The translations under genes and the position numbers were made by a program. This document shows, one piece after another, positions 34,161 to 44,049 of a DNA stretch of 64,000 bases; positions within the stretch are counted from its first letter, which is position 1; each line of letters starts with the position of its first letter. The notes beneath the pieces are model-generated. The model was not told where the DNA came from, did no database searches, and saw only the letters and a program-made list of their open reading frames with translations. Source of the stretch: Prevotella sp. (lineage in GTDB: Bacteria; Bacteroidota; Bacteroidia; Bacteroidales; Bacteroidaceae); assembly GCA_017460515.1 (NCBI GenBank), contig JAFUAY010000050.1:42516-106515 (forward strand), read 5' to 3'.

Positions 34161-37100
34161 TCATGCCGTCTTAATCATCTCCATCATATCGTCAACATAA
34201 CCATTGTCTATTTGGAATAGTACGTGGTTTTCGTGGAATTTCTCTAATTGACTCTGGGGCCAGAAATCCACTTGACGATAATCCGTGTTGCTGATGATGA
34301 AGCTGTTCAGGGCGATACTGTCATCGCCTAAAGTTGGCTCAATGACATCTTTCAGATACTTGTATAACTGTATCTTCTCATCCTCCATGCCATGTAGATG
34401 ACTGATACCCTTGGGGTCGATGAAGTTCACATATTGTTTCTTGCCTTCACGAATCCAAAGGATGAAGTCTGGATAGAAACCAGCATTCTCAAAGAAGCCA
34501 ATACCCTTGCGACTGACGTTTCGCAGTAGATAGATTTCACGTCCTTCGCCATGCTGCTGATAATAACGCTGAAGGTCGTTGATAAATTTACGCTCTCCTT
34601 TATTCACAGCTACAGGATAGATTTCCACTACTTCATTCTCTCCTGGCTTGTAATGTTCATTGAGGAACAACACAGGATTGAACAGGTGCTGGGCGAAGTA
34701 CAAAGCCTCGAAGTTCTCGTTCTCAATACGACGCAAGCCATTCAGCGTACCCTCGCGCACTTCTTTCTCAATATGCTGTAAGGCGTTAATCCAGTCCTCC
34801 TTTGTTTTGCTGACAGCAATTTCGTATTCCCTGATGAAGTTGGGATCTTCCTTCGTCAATACCTCTATATGCTGATGCTTTGATTCCTCCTTGCCTCGCT
34901 TCATCTTATAGGCTTTGTCGATGAAGGCTTTCAGCAGACTGACGGCTATCTCCTGCCACTCTGCCACATCGCGTCCATAGTCGCTACTGAACTGCATCGA
35001 GCGTTCTGGCACCCATAACTTGTACCATTGACGGTCAGACAATATCTCGCGCATCTCCTCCTGATGAATTTCCATGTTATACCACGAACGTTCGTTCTTG
35101 AAGTTCACCATCTCGAAGAATACCTCTGTCCAGTTCAGCAAATCCAACTGCCAGTCTCTCAGCCAGTCTTCATGCTTCTCGGCTGTGCCATTCCCACCTT
35201 TCTCACTTTGCAGTTTCTGAATCTTTGGATACCAGTCAAGTGTGACGCGGACAGTCTTGCGATAATCCAGTAGACTTCTGATAGGCACTTCTTTCTTGAA
35301 GTTATAATCCTTGTCCACTCTCAGTATCTTCAAGCCCTCTGGCAGCGCCTGTATCGTAGGAATGGTCAGTTCAACAATCTCGCTGTCGTTCTGTGGCAGA
35401 CCTTCATCCTCCAAGTAGGCTTTGAACTGGTCCATATAGTTGGAGCGTACACCAAAGATGTTCAGCGTCTCCATTACCTTTAGGTCTTTGGGTATCATGC
35501 TGTCGTGAGGCTTGATGCTGCTGTCAAGAGCCGTGCTACGCTTCAGCGACATCTTATAGCCCTTCAGTCGCACACCACGTCCAAACATCTGAATAATCTG
35601 TGAGCCCTCGCTTTTACCAAAGTTCATCAATCCCATCAGCGACACACGCCAACAGCTCCAGCCCTCAGTAAACTTCTTCGAGCCAATCAGCATGTTGACA
35701 GTTGAAGTTTTTTCAGTTATCTCAGCAAACAGCGACCAATTGGTAAATGGCTTTTCAAACACATCAAACGCTTCAGTAGCTCTACACATATCGGCCACCT
35801 TTTTGGTATCACCCACAAAGATGAGTCCAAAATAGTCTGATGTACCTACGCGTAGTCCAATCTCTCCATCCAGTCCTTTCAGCACATCTACATGGAGCGT
35901 TGCCTCGATGCTGGCATTAAACACCTCCTTCAGTACACCTTGATATATCTTTTCAGCCTTGGCTGCATCAATGTTATACTCGTTGTCCTTTTTCAGTCGT
36001 TTAAACGCCTTACTGAAGATAGCATTGCCGTTCTTGTCTGTCAGCGAGGTGGTACCATTCAGGATATTGATGATATGCTGCTTGTAGTCGTTCTTCTGTT
36101 TCAGGAAGTCGTTCAAGAACAACAGTATCATCACCACATCTGACACCTGATGGCCATTCCATACATTACCTGCACTCGATGCGCTAACGCTGCCACCTAC
36201 AAACACGCCCAGCGGATTGTCTATCAAGAAGTCACGTTCTATTCGATGATCGCTCTTAAATACGATTTTTTGTTCATACAGACACAGCAGATAGGCCGTC
36301 AGATATTCTGCCAACATGTGCTGCTCCTGCCATTCACGCATATTCATGATGCGATAATCTTTACCATAGCCGTCATTATAGAAGTAGCGATAGCTATAGT
36401 CGAAGAGCGTAGCCTTGCCGTATATCTGCAAGAACTCCTTCTTGTCCTTATTGCCCAATGCACCAATAGCCTGCCCAAAGGTGGCTGAGTATTCAAACGA
36501 GAAACCATTCTCAGTCAGTTTATTGCGATACTTCATCCACACATCGCCACCACTTCCTTTATGAGCCTCATCAATCAACACCAGGTTATTCCCTTCGAAA
36601 CTGTCAACAGCCACCGTCTTGTCACCATTGGTATCTGCCAGCTTGTTGATGTCAATCACCTGAATGGTCTGCTTCTGGAAGAAGCCTCCCAGTCCTCCTT
36701 TCGAAAACAGCTCTGCTGACATGTTCGACTTTTGTAGCTGCTCCAAATGCTGACGGCTCAGTTCCTCGTTGGGTGTCAACAGGATTATGTTGTTGATATC
36801 GTTCAACTTACCTGCCTTTTGTGCATAGTATAGATACTGCTTGATGTGAACTTGCATCATCAGTGTCTTACCTGCACCAGTAGCACACCAGAAGGCCAGC
36901 TTGTTCAGGTCGTCCTCTGTAAATTCAGGTACCCCATCCCATGTTCCTTCACGAAAGGTAAAATCGTTTAATAGGAATTCATTGAGTTCTTTTACCAATC
37001 CCTGTTTATTGTGGAAATACCTATCTAAATAGATCTCAGTAAACAGCAGACTCAGATACTGGAAATACTTCCAAACAATCTTATCCCTACGCTTTTCATT

Positions 37101-37361
37101 AATCTCGTTGGTCAACTTCACAATATGATGGTCGTACTCCAGCAGGTCATCTGTAGTCACCTCGCCATTATGCAGATGGTCACGCATGGCATAGTAGAGG
37201 CGCGAGATACCGTTCTCATCAACACCTTCATAGATGGGGTCTTTCAAGTCCTCTGATAGAGCCGTCAGACTCTTGGCGCCCAACAAGTGGAGCACATAGT
37301 TGAACGTCACCAGCGCATATTGCAGCTTTCCGTTGTCTGTTCGTTGTCTTCCTCTTGGCAT
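34161..37361 (-). CDS. res: Type III restriction Res subunit (helicase-nuclease)
   Basis: A 1066-residue SF2 enzyme. Walker A CATGAGKTLMM (GAGKT at 162-166), DEAH motif LVLIDEAHKGSGG (264-267), motif III-like SFEYSATFG, and a helicase C-terminal region with GLMNFGKSEGSQIIQMFGRGVR (about 590-610). Near the C-terminus FYPDFILWIREGKKQYVNFI followed by DPKG forms a PD-(D/E)XK nuclease site (about residue 1000). It starts 4 nt after mod. In type III systems Res translocates or slides and cuts when two unmodified sites meet. Its length and motif order are typical of the family. Confidence 0.9.
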   Translation of the reverse strand: MPRGRQRTDNGKLQYALVTFNYVLHLLGAKSLTALSEDLKDPIYEGVDENGISRLYYAMRDHLHNGEVTTDDLLEYDHHIVKLTNEINEKRRDKIVWKYFQYLSLLFTEIYLDRYFHNKQGLVKELNEFLLNDFTFREGTWDGVPEFTEDDLNKLAFWCATGAGKTLMMQVHIKQYLYYAQKAGKLNDINNIILLTPNEELSRQHLEQLQKSNMSAELFSKGGLGGFFQKQTIQVIDINKLADTNGDKTVAVDSFEGNNLVLIDEAHKGSGGDVWMKYRNKLTENGFSFEYSATFGQAIGALGNKDKKEFLQIYGKATLFDYSYRYFYNDGYGKDYRIMNMREWQEQHMLAEYLTAYLLCLYEQKIVFKSDHRIERDFLIDNPLGVFVGGSVSASSAGNVWNGHQVSDVVMILLFLNDFLKQKNDYKQHIINILNGTTSLTDKNGNAIFSKAFKRLKKDNEYNIDAAKAEKIYQGVLKEVFNASIEATLHVDVLKGLDGEIGLRVGTSDYFGLIFVGDTKKVADMCRATEAFDVFEKPFTNWSLFAEITEKTSTVNMLIGSKKFTEGWSCWRVSLMGLMNFGKSEGSQIIQMFGRGVRLKGYKMSLKRSTALDSSIKPHDSMIPKDLKVMETLNIFGVRSNYMDQFKAYLEDEGLPQNDSEIVELTIPTIQALPEGLKILRVDKDYNFKKEVPIRSLLDYRKTVRVTLDWYPKIQKLQSEKGGNGTAEKHEDWLRDWQLDLLNWTEVFFEMVNFKNERSWYNMEIHQEEMREILSDRQWYKLWVPERSMQFSSDYGRDVAEWQEIAVSLLKAFIDKAYKMKRGKEESKHQHIEVLTKEDPNFIREYEIAVSKTKEDWINALQHIEKEVREGTLNGLRRIENENFEALYFAQHLFNPVLFLNEHYKPGENEVVEIYPVAVNKGERKFINDLQRYYQQHGEGREIYLLRNVSRKGIGFFENAGFYPDFILWIREGKKQYVNFIDPKGISHLHGMEDEKIQLYKYLKDVIEPTLGDDSIALNSFIISNTDYRQVDFWPQSQLEKFHENHVLFQIDNGYVDDMMEMIKTA

Positions 37362-37365
37362 AGTC

Positions 37366-40300
37366 TTATTCCTCCTCGAACATACGTTTCATCAGTTCTT
37401 GCTCTATCAGACGAACCTTCCAATGTTCCTCGTCACTTTTGATGTTTGGCAGGGTGTTGTCGCCATTCACGTAAATCACGTCAAACTCACGGTCGAGTGT
37501 CGAGTAATCCTGCTTGCGGAAGAAGTCGTTCAGGTCGTCATTCTTGATGACATCCTGATTGCGCCAGATGACCAATGCATGTTCCTTCTCAATATGCGTC
37601 GTTCCTTCCACCACACAGATGTTATCATCCTTATGCCAATGGATGCTGTCAACGTGCAAGCCAATCAGATAGTTAAAGGTATCCACCAAATCGACTGGTG
37701 TATCAACCAGTTCATTGTCGCGAGTAGTCTTGATGGTATAGTCGAAGGGATGAACAAAATCCTTGGTATTAATCAGACTATCACGCGTTTCTGTGTCGAG
37801 CATATAGCGCAGCACATAACTCTCGTTATCAGTCTTTCCAAAGCCATCGTTCACCTCCAGATTGTTCAGCGTATCTTCGTATTGCTCTAAACAAATGTAT
37901 TTGAAACATTGACTGATGCCATTACGAGAGACAGGTTTGCCATCTTTCCAATCTTGAGAGTAAACAACATTCTTTATACGTGGTAATGTCGCAAAATCAA
38001 AATTATCACCAACCTGCATTAAAATATATTTTCTTTTACCGTCATCTTTTCTGTTTAGATTTATCAGAGCATGTCCTGTAGAAGCAGAGCCTGCAAAGAA
38101 ATCTAACACTACGGCATTACTTAAACTGCGAATTTTCTGCAAATTAAAGATATAATCAATAAAAGCTATTGGCTTTTTACCATTACGATATTCAAGTCCT
38201 CCTTCATTCGAGCAATCATTAAATTCCTTTTCAAAATCAACATAGTTAGGATATGGAATATCCAAAATATCTTTCCCATTTTGTGGAACACCTTGGAAAT
38301 AATCACCATTCTTTCTACCACTCTCAATGCTTGGCGTCCAGAAGAATCGATAACCAAGTCCATCATCTCCCATATTAGGAACTTTATAAAGGTATCCTGG
38401 CTGCTGGTCGGCAATAGGCTCTAAATAGCCAACATAAAAACGTCCGCTTGAATTTCCTTCTCTTAACGTTCCTCTGACACTCATCCTTTTAAAATAACTT
38501 TTAGACGGTTTTTTGTGTTTAATAATCTCATAGGAACCTGGGGCAAAAACTTCCACGTCTTTATTATTCATTGATACCGTTTGAAAAGGCAAACCAACAA
38601 TCTTCACTTCATGTAAATATTCATCTATGGAAGTATTGTCTTTATGTTTCTTTTCTGGTTTAAAATCAGAAGAGTTAGAACACATGATAGCAGACTCATA
38701 AACTTCATGAAAATCTTTGTCGCCTTTTAATATTCTATCTTCGTGTCTAACCTTAACAGATAAAGTAGTAAGATACTTGTCGTATTTCAAATCAAGCAAT
38801 TTCTTCAAATTGAACATCTCGTTCTCATTGATACTTATTACAACACTTGCAGAATCTATGAGCAATTTATTACTTTCTTCAATTCTACTTTCCATCATAG
38901 AAAGCCATGATGAATGCATATAATTGTCTTTGTAAATAAACATATCTGACCCTGTATTGTATGGGGGGTCAATATAAATGCCATTGACTTGCCGTCTAAA
39001 TTTATTATTGAGTAATCTTAAACCATGATAATTATCGCTCTTTACAAGTAATCCGTTTGTATTCCCATCCAACTCTTCAATCTCAGCAATTAACTTATGT
39101 TTAAACTGCTCAGAGAAAAACTTAGTGTCAAGTACAAGAAATTGATTCTTCTCGTCCTTCAGAAACTCAATCGTAAGAGGCTCACTATAGCCAGTCGTAA
39201 ACAAACCGTCACCTTTAATCTCGTCAATAGCGAACAGGCGTACCCATTCCTTACGCTGTTCATCATTTGCACAAATCTCTGGATAGAATTTCTCTGGTAC
39301 ACGATCAAGCGTTATACAATAGTCACTCTGTACCACGAACTTCTTCTTTAACCAAAGTCGCTTTTGGAAGTTCTCTAATTGTGCCAAGAAATCGATGATT
39401 TTCTGACCAACCTTCTCGATGGCCTTTACCACAGCTAACTGGCTCTGCAATTTGGCAGCATCGAGGTCTGCTATGACGAACACCTCGTTCTTGATATAGA
39501 AGTCTAACTCACGACTCAGGAAACCACCAAGGTCTTTATGAATGAAGTAATCGAACGAGTTCTTGGCTGTATACGCATTGATGTGTTTCTCTAATAGTAC
39601 GCTTTCGTCTGTCACTTGCTCCTTCATCAGCAATTCTTGCCAGGCAGCTGGTACGACAGTAGACAATGTCTCAAAAGCTTTCTTGTTCAAATCCTTTTGC
39701 TTTGTTGCCTTGGGCATCAATTCGTAGGTGAAGCTGATATGCAACTCGCCATCAACCTCTTCGATAACTGGCTGTCCTTCCTCTGTGCGCAATATATCGA
39801 AACGGCGTTCCATGCCGTTGGTATTCTTGTTGTTATTCTGCTCTGTAGAAGCATCCACCAATACAAAACAAATCCTGCGACCGTCTCGAAGTTTGAAGGT
39901 GTAGTTCTTGAAATACTCTGAAGTCTTGATGTAATACTGGTCGGAGTTGGCCCAATAGAGTTTCACCTCCTCACCATTATAGGGGATAGCATAGGCAGAA
40001 TTACCACCAGTTTTATAACGACGCTGCGACACAAAATCGCCACCCTCGTAATAGCGGCTAAAGAACTGAGTGAGGCGTGAGAAAACCGTATTTTGCAGGT
40101 CATCAACACCTGTGCTGCTTTGCGCTATCTGCTGGCGCAGTTGCTGCACCTTGGGATTCGTATCAGGATCGATGCCCAGATTCTTACAACCTTCAATGGC
40201 TTTAGTCAACTCCTGCTGTAGCGAGTCATCAGTCTTGACATACTCCTTAAGAGTCTGCTCTACCTGAGGCAACAATTGGTTGTCAAGGAAGTCATTGATT

Positions 40301-40410
40301 TGATTACGCTTGTGGTTCATGATGCGATAGATGCCAAAGTCCAACTCGGCATGATCCATCATGAATATCTCCTGTAGTTTCTTGCGAAATGCTTCGTAAT
40401 GTTGATTCAT
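37366..40410 (-). CDS. mod: Type III-like Mod N6-adenine DNA methyltransferase, extended
   Basis: A 1014-residue methyltransferase, far longer than the usual 550-700. The first 440 residues are an extension with coiled-coil-like helices. Catalytic motif IV GIYIDPPYNTGSD (DPPY at 481-484) precedes the S-adenosylmethionine motif VVLDFFAGSASTGH (FFAGSASTG at 771-779), so it belongs to the beta class like other type III Mods. The target-recognition region between them (about 500-765) is encoded by notably AT-rich DNA compared with both ends. It starts 12 nt after the SNF2 gene and would protect host DNA and give Res its specificity. Confidence 0.88.
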   Translation of the reverse strand: MNQHYEAFRKKLQEIFMMDHAELDFGIYRIMNHKRNQINDFLDNQLLPQVEQTLKEYVKTDDSLQQELTKAIEGCKNLGIDPDTNPKVQQLRQQIAQSSTGVDDLQNTVFSRLTQFFSRYYEGGDFVSQRRYKTGGNSAYAIPYNGEEVKLYWANSDQYYIKTSEYFKNYTFKLRDGRRICFVLVDASTEQNNNKNTNGMERRFDILRTEEGQPVIEEVDGELHISFTYELMPKATKQKDLNKKAFETLSTVVPAAWQELLMKEQVTDESVLLEKHINAYTAKNSFDYFIHKDLGGFLSRELDFYIKNEVFVIADLDAAKLQSQLAVVKAIEKVGQKIIDFLAQLENFQKRLWLKKKFVVQSDYCITLDRVPEKFYPEICANDEQRKEWVRLFAIDEIKGDGLFTTGYSEPLTIEFLKDEKNQFLVLDTKFFSEQFKHKLIAEIEELDGNTNGLLVKSDNYHGLRLLNNKFRRQVNGIYIDPPYNTGSDMFIYKDNYMHSSWLSMMESRIEESNKLLIDSASVVISINENEMFNLKKLLDLKYDKYLTTLSVKVRHEDRILKGDKDFHEVYESAIMCSNSSDFKPEKKHKDNTSIDEYLHEVKIVGLPFQTVSMNNKDVEVFAPGSYEIIKHKKPSKSYFKRMSVRGTLREGNSSGRFYVGYLEPIADQQPGYLYKVPNMGDDGLGYRFFWTPSIESGRKNGDYFQGVPQNGKDILDIPYPNYVDFEKEFNDCSNEGGLEYRNGKKPIAFIDYIFNLQKIRSLSNAVVLDFFAGSASTGHALINLNRKDDGKRKYILMQVGDNFDFATLPRIKNVVYSQDWKDGKPVSRNGISQCFKYICLEQYEDTLNNLEVNDGFGKTDNESYVLRYMLDTETRDSLINTKDFVHPFDYTIKTTRDNELVDTPVDLVDTFNYLIGLHVDSIHWHKDDNICVVEGTTHIEKEHALVIWRNQDVIKNDDLNDFFRKQDYSTLDREFDVIYVNGDNTLPNIKSDEEHWKVRLIEQELMKRMFEEE

Positions 40411-40422
40411 ATATAATGTCGT

Positions 40423-43335
40423 TTATTTGCTTAGTGTAAAGTGAATGAAGAAAAGTTCCTTGTCGCTAATCTGCTGATTCAGATACTGGCGCAGACGAGC
40501 AATCATCTCATCGCGTTGCTGCTCGATTTCTTCGTCCAAGTCATCCTGCTCAGCACGTTTTCTCTTCAGTTCGTTTGTTACCTGTTTCAGTTCCTTTTCA
40601 AGGTCCAGTTTCTCATTCAGCGAGTCTGCCTTAGTGAGTAATCGCTGTTTCTCTTTCTTCTTGGCTTTCAGTTGTTTGATTTCTCGCTCAATGGTCAACT
40701 CCTTATCGTCAGCCCAAGCCTCTACATGAGCTATCTCGTCTTTCAGCATCTTGTCGTTGCGCTCGCTGATTTGGGTGGTTAGCGCATCCTTGCGCACATC
40801 ATAGAAACGCGACATCTCTGTTTGTGGCACATCAAGGATGGTGTTTCCTACTGTCGCAACAATGCCCAATATGCGTTGGGCCAGTTCTGATGACAATTCC
40901 TCGCCTTGAGCACCGATGGCTGTCAGCACAATATGATCTTCGTCCTGTCCATCGCTGTGATAGCTGACAAGGTGAGCTGCCAAGTAACCTTCTCGACAAT
41001 CTGTCTGTTCTATGATGGAATTCTTATAGGGATGGCGGTTATAATCGAAATGCAGTTCACGATGAGGTAGTTCCTTATTCTTAGCTGCATCGATAATAGC
41101 CTTTGCCAATGGATGTGACAGACGGTAGTTTTCATAGCGTCCGTCTGTATTGCTTATCTGATAAGTGCCTGTGGCGATATTTTGTTGAGGGAAGGGATTT
41201 TGCTTCAACGTGAAGATCAGATTATCTGCATCCGTTGCTTCTATGCATTCAGGGGCATACGATACTGTCAAGGCATAGAGCCAACGATGGATACGACTGA
41301 TGTTCTTGTCATCGTTCTCCCTACGAATACGCAGCAGATTGACCACGTCTTCATCCAGATTCTCCAACAAGGCCTGACGTGTCTCGTTCATCGTCTGCTG
41401 TATCTGTGCATCCATCTCGTTCTGCACCTGGTCGAAAGCAGCATTGATTTCCTCTGGCGTGCGACAGGTTTGGTATATCTCCAACAGGCGTTTCTCGAAG
41501 TCCACACCAGACTCAATGCTACCCAGCACATCGTCGCTGGCACCAAAGATGCCATCGAACAAGTGGAACTTCTCATAGAGCAACTGATAGACACGGATGT
41601 CGGCTGCATTTTTTACATTGATGAAATTGCACACCACCACATCATTGCGCTGGCCATAACGATGGCATCTACCTATGCGCTGCTCTACACGCTGGGGATT
41701 CCACGGCAGGTCGAAGTTCGCGATGAAAGAGCAAAACTGGAGATTGATACCTTCAGAGGCTGCCTCTGTGGCAATCATGATAGAGGCTTTATTGCGGAAA
41801 TAGTCGACAATGGCCTGACGACGATTGGCTGACTTGGATTCAGAGATACGGCCTGTGCGTTCGTTGACGGCAAGCCAGTTCTTATAGATCTGCTTGCTGC
41901 GCTCATCGTTGTTGCTGCCATTGAATAATACGATCTGACCTTTGTAGCCATTGGTCTCCAATAATTCAAAGAGGTATTCCTGTGTACGACGGCTTTCTGT
42001 AAATATCAAGGCCTTGCGATTGGCACCAAGTTCTTCCATCTTCTTGAAGCCTACCTCCAAAGCTTTCAGCAAGCATTCACCTTTATTGTTGTCCTTAATA
42101 CTGTTGGCAAGGTCGAAGATTTCCTGCAGGTCGGCTATTTCATGATAGACGGCTGTCTGCTGTTCTGGCGTGAGGCGTATCTTCTCTATTTCCTTCAAGT
42201 CTTCGTCTTCTGCATCTTCCTCCCATTCCTCTGTCTCTTCGCCAAAACTGTCATCGAAGAGGTCTTGAAGGCTTTCGTCTACTTCTGCTTCTTCTGTTTC
42301 ATCTTCTCCTACCAGTCGCTTTAGGCGATTGATTATGGCCTGAACAGTATCACAGACGGCAAATGATGATGATGCCATCAACTTACGGATAAGCAACAAC
42401 AGAAGGGTGCGCTGACCAGCAGGCAGACCGTAAGCATCGTCACGAAGCAGATAGGCACTCATCTTGTCGTAGAGTTCCTGCTCCTTCTCGCTGGGCATAT
42501 ACTCCTGAGCCATTGGGATGCGCGAAGTGTATTTCACATACTCTGTCACCTGTTTGCGCAGGTTGCGATGAATCAGGGTGCTGAGACGGAATTTCAAATC
42601 ATGGAAGCTGTGGTTATCTTCTAACGAGTGATAGCCATATTGCGTATTGAAACTCTTCAGGTCGCCAAAATACTTGTCATCGATGACTGATACCAGTCCG
42701 TAGAGTTCTTGTATGTTGTTCTGTAGTGGTGTGGCCGTCAGCAACAGCTTCTTGTTATGACGGAAAGCATCGCTGATGCGACGTGCTGCGGCAGAAGAGT
42801 TTTTATAGACATTGCGCAGTTTGTGGGCCTCGTCGATAACCACCAAGTCCCAATTGGTTTGCGACAGTTGGTCAGCATACTTGGCGGCATACTGATAAGA
42901 ACAAATGAAGAGGTGATGTTTGCGCAGGATGATGTCTGGTGAAATCAGCGAACCACGTTCCAAAATCTCTGACTTCAGGAAGAACTTTTCTTCCATCTCT
43001 GTGCTCCACTGACGGCGCAGGGTAGCAGGGACAATGATAAGAATACGGCGTTTTTGCTCTGCCCAGTACTGACTGATAACGATGCCGGCCTCAATGGTCT
43101 TTCCCAAACCTACCTCGTCGGCCAATACTACACCTTTTGAGAAAGGTGACTTCAAGGCAAACAGGGCTGCCTCCACCTGATGAGGATTCAAATCGACACG
43201 AGCCTCAGACAAAACGCCAGCCACACGCATATCATCATCACCCGACCGCCTTGATGTGAGCAGCCAGGCGATGTACTTCTGCTGTTCCTCTGTTAATAGC
43301 GGCAAGCGCTGGTTCTGTACATCGTTGAATTTCAT
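40423..43335 (-). CDS. SNF2-family helicase, RapA-like, of the restriction operon
   Basis: A 970-residue SNF2/RapA-type ATPase. Walker A ADEVGLGKTIEAG (GLGKT at 76-80), DEAH (168-171, LVVIDEAHKLRN), motif III LLLTATPLQNNIQE, and the C-terminal lobe with TEAASEGINLQFCSF and RVEQRIGRCHRYGQR. An acidic stretch (about 345-375) interrupts the lobes, and a long coiled coil covers about 860-950. The order SNF2-Mod recalls DISARM class 1 (drmD, drmMI), but DrmA and DrmB are not present and Res follows instead. It is the first gene of the operon and is preceded by a 338-nt structured leader. It probably moves along DNA or remodels protein-DNA contacts for the restriction complex. Confidence 0.88.
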   Translation of the reverse strand: MKFNDVQNQRLPLLTEEQQKYIAWLLTSRRSGDDDMRVAGVLSEARVDLNPHQVEAALFALKSPFSKGVVLADEVGLGKTIEAGIVISQYWAEQKRRILIIVPATLRRQWSTEMEEKFFLKSEILERGSLISPDIILRKHHLFICSYQYAAKYADQLSQTNWDLVVIDEAHKLRNVYKNSSAAARRISDAFRHNKKLLLTATPLQNNIQELYGLVSVIDDKYFGDLKSFNTQYGYHSLEDNHSFHDLKFRLSTLIHRNLRKQVTEYVKYTSRIPMAQEYMPSEKEQELYDKMSAYLLRDDAYGLPAGQRTLLLLLIRKLMASSSFAVCDTVQAIINRLKRLVGEDETEEAEVDESLQDLFDDSFGEETEEWEEDAEDEDLKEIEKIRLTPEQQTAVYHEIADLQEIFDLANSIKDNNKGECLLKALEVGFKKMEELGANRKALIFTESRRTQEYLFELLETNGYKGQIVLFNGSNNDERSKQIYKNWLAVNERTGRISESKSANRRQAIVDYFRNKASIMIATEAASEGINLQFCSFIANFDLPWNPQRVEQRIGRCHRYGQRNDVVVCNFINVKNAADIRVYQLLYEKFHLFDGIFGASDDVLGSIESGVDFEKRLLEIYQTCRTPEEINAAFDQVQNEMDAQIQQTMNETRQALLENLDEDVVNLLRIRRENDDKNISRIHRWLYALTVSYAPECIEATDADNLIFTLKQNPFPQQNIATGTYQISNTDGRYENYRLSHPLAKAIIDAAKNKELPHRELHFDYNRHPYKNSIIEQTDCREGYLAAHLVSYHSDGQDEDHIVLTAIGAQGEELSSELAQRILGIVATVGNTILDVPQTEMSRFYDVRKDALTTQISERNDKMLKDEIAHVEAWADDKELTIEREIKQLKAKKKEKQRLLTKADSLNEKLDLEKELKQVTNELKRKRAEQDDLDEEIEQQRDEMIARLRQYLNQQISDKELFFIHFTLSK

Positions 43336-43354
43336 TCGACCATTTACACGCTCG

Positions 43355-43378
43355 GCAGAGTGAACAAGTTCGCTCTGC
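43355..43378 (-). promoter_or_regulatory. Hairpin just before the SNF2 start
   Basis: An 11-bp stem, GCAGAGTGAAC (43355-43365) with 43368-43378, including one G-T pair and a tiny loop. It ends 20 nt before the SNF2 start codon and could affect ribosome access. Confidence 0.6.
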
Positions 43379-43453
43379 TCTCGCTTAATAATGGATTCAT
43401 TACTATTTAACGTCTGTCTATGCTTCTATCTTGGGGGTTCCCTATAGGACACA

Positions 43454-43605
43454 AAAAACGTGGGCATCATCTTGCTCACGTTGTGGTCCTAGGAAAACCA
43501 GATGAAGACACAAGACTTAGCCCACGCGCCGTTACAGCACGTGTGCTTACTTGCCTGCCTTCATCATTTCCTTATTATTGAAATTTCCTAGGTTTCAACG
43601 TGAAT
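43454..43605 (-). ncRNA. Structured leader with terminator-like hairpin (candidate attenuator)
   Basis: On the minus strand a long nested fold is visible: 43596-43603 pairs with 43476-43483 (8 bp); 43584-43592 with 43488-43496 (9 bp, CCTAGGAAA and TTTCCTAGG); 43550-43565 with 43501-43514 (14 pairs with a 2-nt bulge); and an inner 7-bp stem near 43524-43543. ACGTG and CACGT arms at 43458-43481 form a hairpin followed by six Ts on this strand. The 8-bp closing stem uses the same bases as that hairpin, so the two folds exclude each other. Two positions are G-U pairs on the minus strand but A-C mismatches on the plus strand, favouring a minus-strand RNA. No known riboswitch class is recognised. 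Confidence 0.6.
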
Positions 43606-43679
43606 AGAACAATAGCAGAACGCTGTTTATCTCATAAGAAAAGATCTCCTGCTCACTGCGGCTACCGCAGATTGCTTTG

Positions 43680-43687
43680 CAAAGATA
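43680..43687 (-). promoter_or_regulatory. -7 box for the SNF2-Mod-Res operon leader
   Basis: TATCTTTG on the minus strand, a full consensus match. No clear -33 TTG at 20 nt. Transcription from here would give a leader of about 340 nt. Confidence 0.6.
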
Positions 43688-43747
43688 CAAACTTTATTTG
43701 TAATTATGACTTCTAAATAGAAAAAACTGCGAAAAAGTTACAAAAAA

Positions 43748-43779
43748 CTTGGAATGTTCGAAAACAATTCGTATCTTTG
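43748..43779 (+). promoter_or_regulatory. Promoter for a candidate small RNA
   Basis: CTTG at 43748-43751, a 20-nt spacer, and TATCTTTG at 43772-43779 on the plus strand, divergent from the operon promoter. Confidence 0.65.
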
Positions 43780-43785
43780 CAGCGT

Positions 43786-43866
43786 GAAAGGAAAAAGATT
43801 TCCTCCCGCTGAAATGAAAGAGTAGCACCGTAATCGGGTTAGCAAATCAGTTCAGCGGTTTTTTTA
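43786..43866 (+). ncRNA. Candidate small RNA ending in a terminator hairpin
   Basis: About 80 nt after a consensus promoter. It contains a 6-bp hairpin (AGGAAA, 43789-43794, with TTTCCT, 43799-43804) and then an 8-bp stem CCGCTGAA (43806-43813) with TTCAGCGG (43851-43858), followed by seven Ts. The 37-nt loop between the last arms is unpaired or weakly folded. No open reading frame of note is inside. Confidence 0.5.
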
Positions 43867-43978
43867 TTTCTTCAAATTTTGGATTTCTGCATCGAAAGTC
43901 TTCTGGTCGATGATGGCATATGGTTTGAACAATCCTGTATTCTTAATCTTGCGGACACAAATGTTTACTTCGCAGCGT
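43864..43978 (-). pseudogene. C-terminal remnant of an unknown gene
   Basis: An open frame of 37 codons with no start, ending KIKNTGLFKPYAIIDQKTFD, then AEIQNLKK and a stop. The composition is protein-like, but the family is not recognised and everything upstream is lost. It probably dates from an older gene at this site. Confidence 0.3.
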
Positions 43979-44049
43979 CAGAATGAAATTTCTGGCTACG
44001 CCGCTGAGTGCGGGGAGCAAGACCTTATCGCCCCTGCTCCATCTTTTAT

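Follow-up and report, generated by a model that had tools for sequence, protein, structure and literature searches.

Why a strongly folded stretch of DNA lies between a promoter box and a restriction operon, and whether it acts there as a switch in the RNA, are the questions raised by this locus. The window, that is, the whole stretch of 64,000 nucleotides from Prevotella sp. that was analysed, carries on its minus strand a DrmD-like SNF2 helicase gene (40423..43335; Pfam, and PADLOC DrmD at 8.6e-204) and genes for a type III-like DNA methyltransferase (Mod, 37366..40410) and a type III-like restriction subunit (Res, 34161..37361), both assigned by Pfam and PADLOC. The SNF2 gene is the first long gene after a leader RNA of about 222 nt (43453..43674, minus strand), which probably starts near 43674 and ends in a U-run. 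By sequence, TATCTTTG at 43687-43680 of the minus strand is a consensus match to the -7 promoter box, and the leader appears to have its own promoter. The 241 nt at 43440-43680 fold at -84.3 kcal/mol, compared with -63.2 (s.d. 4.2) for dinucleotide shuffles (z = -5.0; 0 of 200 shuffles were as low).

Several pairings of the minus-strand RNA make up this fold. The closing stem P2a joins CACGUUG (43602-43596) to CAACGUG (43483-43477), and P2b joins CCUAGGAAA (43592-43584) to UUUCCUAGG (43496-43488), the latter flanked by GGY (43497-43499) and RCC (43485-43487), in which Y and R covary. P3, 13 bp with a 2-nt bulge, pairs segment s2 (43579-43548) with s3 (43520-43502) at a duplex energy of -13.4 kcal/mol. 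An inner hairpin occupies 43547-43519, where P4 has its 5' strand at 43539..43547 and its 3' strand, GCGUGGGC, at 43520..43527. The same GCGUGGGC can pair with 43465-43458 in a pseudoknot (-15.9 kcal/mol), and s3 can pair instead with the spacer s4 (43466..43475) to form P5. The 5' segment s1 (43604..43626) has s2 or the downstream s5 (43409..43430) as alternative partners, the latter pairing being P1 (-17.5 kcal/mol). The T3' strand, GCCCACG plus the U-run (43453..43465), is claimed either by the pseudoknot or by a terminator-like hairpin of about 43482-43473 with 43466-43457 (-10.0 kcal/mol), whose 5' arm overlaps the 3' strand of P2a and which also overlaps the six-T run at 43458-43453. The preliminary description of this DNA had proposed nested long-range stems with an inner hairpin behind a -7 box, a terminator-like hairpin with six Ts sharing bases with the closing stem, and a rival pairing of 43520-43527 with 43458-43465. 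All of these are present, in a fold well beyond chance. By eye, an 18-codon reading frame (43344-43400, minus strand) follows s5, ahead of the SNF2 gene.

A DNA search with the window leader gave matches at ten places in 9 of 199 genomes, its own included; one place (L009) looks coding by eye and was set aside. The own genome has a second copy, whose downstream gene resembles EcoRI-type methylases by eye. The family pattern derived from these copies (AACCTAGGAAATT, then CCTAGGRC after a gap of 68-98) occurred in at least 115 stretches of genome contigs. Among the titles listed for pattern matches, 76 of 80 bear Bacteroidota-type names, as read; outside this phylum by title are L039 and L043 (Kiritimatiellae/Kiritimatiellaeota), the genus of L016 is placed in Lentisphaerota, and L022 is titled 'uncultured bacterium'. 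A covariance model, R1, was built from alignment A3, which holds 71 of the 121 listed copies. R1 matches the window copy at 43608-43455 with 92.2 bits (E 5.6e-21; its E-values are rough, the calibration being short), and finds the leader in 188 of 298 related genomes and 41 of 119 genera (at most 10 candidates scored per genome), and in 41 of 395 genomes sampled from the whole phylum (at most 7 per genome). The own genome, which is 65% complete, holds six R1 copies with E below 1e-7 and two weak ones, and 14 genomes picked for having matches hold 3 to 25 copies each. The window leader is one member of a large structured RNA family that is multi-copy in many Bacteroidota genomes.

Some copies showed further features of context. 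Three more copies in the own genome (L160, L161, and L163, on contigs C44, C34, and C5 of G000) precede EcoRI-type methyltransferase-like genes, and behind each of these genes lies a second one, of one kind in all three cases, as judged by eye. Copies starting less than 500 nt from a contig start numbered 10 of 25 in G135, an assembly fragmented into about 700 contigs, 3 of 14 in G197, and 2 of 22 in G240, which suggests that assemblies may tend to break close to the leader. The gapped family pattern had no match in viral contigs. A 17-mer occurred in four stretches of phage or plasmid records; R1 supports two of them (L012 and L013), and the others (L011 and L014) look coding by eye. L013 is an IMG/VR viral contig in which the leader precedes an EcoRI-type methyltransferase-like gene. 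Used as query, this copy gave no match among annotated phages, and its one plasmid match, of 41 letters, was judged irrelevant.

The preliminary description had called for a covariance model built from homologous leaders, and in such alignments the helices covary. The covariation scores of P2a, P2b, P4, and the pseudoknot were reached by 0 of 500 shuffles; these shuffles leave sequence relatedness in place, which limits all counts of this kind. In A3 (about 66 effective sequences), mutual information reaches 1.2 to 1.9 bits at six P2a pairs, with 92-100% pairing; over P2a as a whole, 94.5% of cells are paired and 7 of 7 pairs show two-sided changes. P2a, the pseudoknot, GGY/RCC, and GAA/UUC together are also paired in 94.5% of cells, compared with 73.7% when shuffled and less than 50% when slid. 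The two parts of the pseudoknot are 97.9% and 92.2% paired, with two-sided changes in 7 of 7 pairs; for GGY/RCC the values are 85.8% and 1 of 3. Hairpin P4 is 90.9% paired, against 83.0% in shuffles and 19.8 to 75.9% when slid, and its two-sided changes in 5 of 5 pairs were matched by 50 of 500 shuffles. P2b is invariant in the 115 seed loci because these were chosen by the exact P2b pattern, so that its covariation rests on A5, an alignment of 35 relatives fitted to R1. There P2b changes, for example from CCUAGG to CUGGUA, yet is 99.2% paired; two-sided changes occur in 7 of 8 pairs, and 12 of 500 shuffles had as many further pair types. Over aligned helix cells G.U exceeds A.C by 165 to 17 in A3 and 51 to 3 in A5, suggesting that the minus strand of the window is the RNA strand, as G-U pairs in the window had first hinted. 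What emerges is a set of covarying helices on the transcribed strand, as in a structured cis-regulatory leader.

Each copy's segments were also compared with those of other copies, using the 85 of 121 listed copies left after removal of similar ones and 2000 permutations. Own-strand pairing was favoured for P2a (z -35.1), s2:s3 (-16.9), s3:s4 (-13.0), P4 (-10.7), and the pseudoknot (-9.6), followed by s1:s5 (-7.4) and s1:s2 (-4.1). The terminator pairing was among the weakest (-3.8 and -4.4). Three controls stayed near zero or above (P2a5:T3 -0.4, s2:spacer +0.4, s2:post +1.6). Some pairings that were not predicted scored as well, namely s3:post (-5.7), s1:spacer (-3.3), and T3:post (-2.3). 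The scores of s1:spacer and s3:post indicate that similar segment types raise the background, and P1 is less certain for this reason. P4 and the pseudoknot use one strand and both covary, so two folds are conserved; both partner choices of s3 and of the P4 3' strand are kept, as expected of a two-state RNA. The mutually exclusive folds first proposed for the window are therefore real and conserved, in covariation and in own-strand pairing alike. The family, its pairings, and the strands that they share are established by comparison of sequences, and so are the positions of the copies relative to genes.

A co-directional frame begins 90-350 nt after the anchor in 99 of 121 listed copies, a consistent same-strand place before genes; the other 22 copies have no such close frame, some being cut by locus ends. 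For 110 of the 121 copies a downstream protein was available. With several Pfam families possible per protein, these 110 proteins matched N6_N4_Mtase (8), ResIII (7), EcoRI_methylase (6), Eco57I (6), N6_Mtase (5), SNF2 (5), and LRR_5 (3) among 93 families in all, and PADLOC concurred (type I and II methyltransferases, DrmD). The comparison set was 206 upstream frames, chosen mechanically and not curated as genes. Simple methyltransferase or helicase motifs were present in 24 of the 110 downstream proteins and in 2 of these frames (p 3e-10), and signal-peptide-like starts in 43 of the proteins and 32 of the frames (p 6e-6). Among 19 downstream proteins from the genome G240, which has 22 copies and was covered by 20 fetched regions, 11 matched Mfa_like_1 (fimbrillin-like) and 1 matched Eco57I. 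BspA-type LRR occurred in 2 of 18 downstream proteins from other genomes. One downstream protein (L198), among ten proteins scanned together, has a TonB-receptor plug domain, and six of the ten had no Pfam match. The downstream families are varied, and no common metabolic pathway was seen among them. Nor is the leader tied to one fixed operon: 10 of 298 genomes hold 12 SNF2 homologues in all, and 4 of these, the window included, carry it, three being the closest (100, 59, and 59% identity) and the fourth weak (37.4 bits). The leader precedes SNF2-Mod-Res, the restriction operon whose control had first been proposed, but the element is specific neither to that operon nor to restriction. Beside some copies, other elements were seen. 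An Rfam DUF805b RNA starts 31 nt after the leader core (L117:1345-1378), and another copy has an Rfam FopS small RNA about 440 nt ahead of it (L047:4662-4728). Similar proteins, which may resemble nuclease toxin domains, are encoded upstream of two copies (L002:810-1388 and L008:1948-2577); the L002 protein had no Pfam match.

The conserved exclusive folds, the missing Rfam match described below, and the same-strand genes behind 99 of 121 copies make transcription attenuation, or expression controlled by a ligand or RNA, the best reading of the leader on comparative evidence. More specifically, we consider it probable, at roughly 60%, that the leader is a cis-acting, riboswitch-like attenuator, one of a widespread leader family that controls accessory genes for defence and for the cell surface. 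From the conserved pairings we infer switching in the cell, termination and its sign, and the nature of the signal, as follows. A core of P2a, P2b, and the pseudoknot would toggle between fold A, with P3 (s2:s3) and the P4 hairpin and with the T3' strand free, and fold B, with P5 (s3:s4) and the pseudoknot of P4-3' with T3'. T3' stands directly before the U-run, so its partner would decide whether transcription continues into the gene. In the window, T3' paired with the 3' strand of P2a would form the terminator (off), and T3' held by P4-3' in the pseudoknot would be the on state. The balance would most likely be tipped by a general signal that defence and surface genes share or by a factor acting in trans; either is likelier than a pathway metabolite because the downstream genes have no evident pathway in common.

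The terminator itself is clear in the window but not in every copy. Across the 85 copies a U-rich tail is found in 79, a locally paired 3' strand in 57, and both in 54, so that 28 lack the locally paired strand and 31 lack the hairpin or the U-tail. The fimbrillin-gene copies, which lie outside this set, have by eye no obvious compact terminator. Expression platforms vary within riboswitch families, and the absence of the hairpin from many copies suggests that these may use another platform. Because the pseudoknot helix abuts the U-run, the sign could also be reversed, with the pseudoknot helix (P4-3':T3', with P5 inside) and the U-run as the terminator and hairpin P4 as the antiterminator. 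The high pairing of the pseudoknot next to the U-run and the 28 copies without a locally paired 3' strand would fit this arrangement. However, its long enclosed loop should slow terminator formation, and some copies of the restriction type, L048 among them, carry their own compact hairpin; we consider the reversed sign unlikely.

Independent small RNAs acting in trans, with their own promoter and terminator and merely lying upstream of other genes, would account for the promoter box, the U-rich 3' end, the many paralogues per genome, and the copies without a close downstream gene. The close co-directional frames and the enrichment of gene classes downstream speak against this, as does the fact that s1 pairs with s5, beyond the U-run, albeit on a raised background; we consider it improbable. 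Nucleic-acid-binding enzymes adjoin the leader, and the first protein, a methyltransferase or a DrmD-like helicase, might bind its own leader in autogenous control. This is very improbable, as the core also precedes genes for proteins that are unlikely to bind RNA, namely fimbrillins, LRR proteins, and a TonB receptor. A DNA-level inverted repeat, either an inverton or a recombination site, would not need the RNA at all. P2a and P2b are long inverted repeats, and exact 11-mer inverted repeats were commoner upstream of the copies (19 of 111 regions) than in control windows (85 of 1796). Furthermore, TonB/SusD and fimbrillin genes are neighbours of the leader and, according to PMC11892184, also of Bacteroidales invertons. 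Those act by DNA inversion, whereas the evidence for the leader is RNA structure: G.U exceeds A.C on one strand, crossing and alternative helices covary, and a repeat arm includes the -7 box in just 2 of the 111 upstream regions (L001 and L110). An invertible promoter is unlikely to be a general explanation, and we give the DNA-level reading hardly any weight. Of the 121 listed copies, 115 had enough upstream sequence for a search for TAnnTTTG, and 92 of these have it 40-170 nt before the anchor; there, sense orientation exceeds antisense by 103 to 17 in the listed bins. The inverted-repeat count rests on 111 of 121. In the window, two -7-like boxes (43678-43698 and 43761-43781) are the arms of an 81% inverted repeat and stand 62 nt apart; there is no obvious gene for the second box.

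The attenuator reading places the leader near several known systems. No known riboswitch class had been apparent in the preliminary description, and the Rfam searches agree. Rfam 15 at the gathering threshold gave 0 matches in the window and, on 20 loci, 4 matches with none on the element. In E-value mode, five weak matches (E 0.15-8.8) lay around 43330-44000 with none overlapping 43453-43674, and eight loci gave one match (E 0.71) off the element. In ZTP and fluoride riboswitches a pseudoknot works against a terminator. The leader resembles them in a pseudoknot that includes the 3' strand and competes with a terminator before a gene, but it is larger, has no Rfam match, and has no evident metabolic pathway downstream. 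The chain of mutually exclusive pairings (s1:s2, s2:s3, s3:s4) recalls trp-type attenuators, from which the leader differs by its conserved core with a pseudoknot. With the antitermination elements epsC/EAR and JUMPstart/ops it shares a position before surface operons and horizontally spread ones, but the leader has no Rfam match to them. Both are named as elements in a table of PMC2864571. Among titles and the beginnings of abstracts, in a literature coverage that excluded most subscription papers and bioRxiv, no description of the leader RNA was recognised. A structured attenuator leader is a known kind of element; as far as tested, this family is new, as are its size and the set of genes that it precedes.

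These results describe a strongly structured RNA family that has no Rfam 15 match and is present in many Bacteroidota genomes, often in several copies. Tentatively, and with rather less confidence than in attenuation itself, the family may be a global Bacteroidota RNA switch class of up to about 25 copies per genome, through which one common signal, for example a second messenger or an antitermination factor, would set the expression of a variable repertoire. This repertoire would comprise restriction systems, fimbrillins, LRR surface proteins, and TonB receptors, several classes of which are controlled elsewhere by DNA inversion. If the leader controls both defence and surface genes, phage defence and surface variation would be linked through one RNA device, and the input of the leader, whether ligand, protein, or RNA, becomes directly testable.
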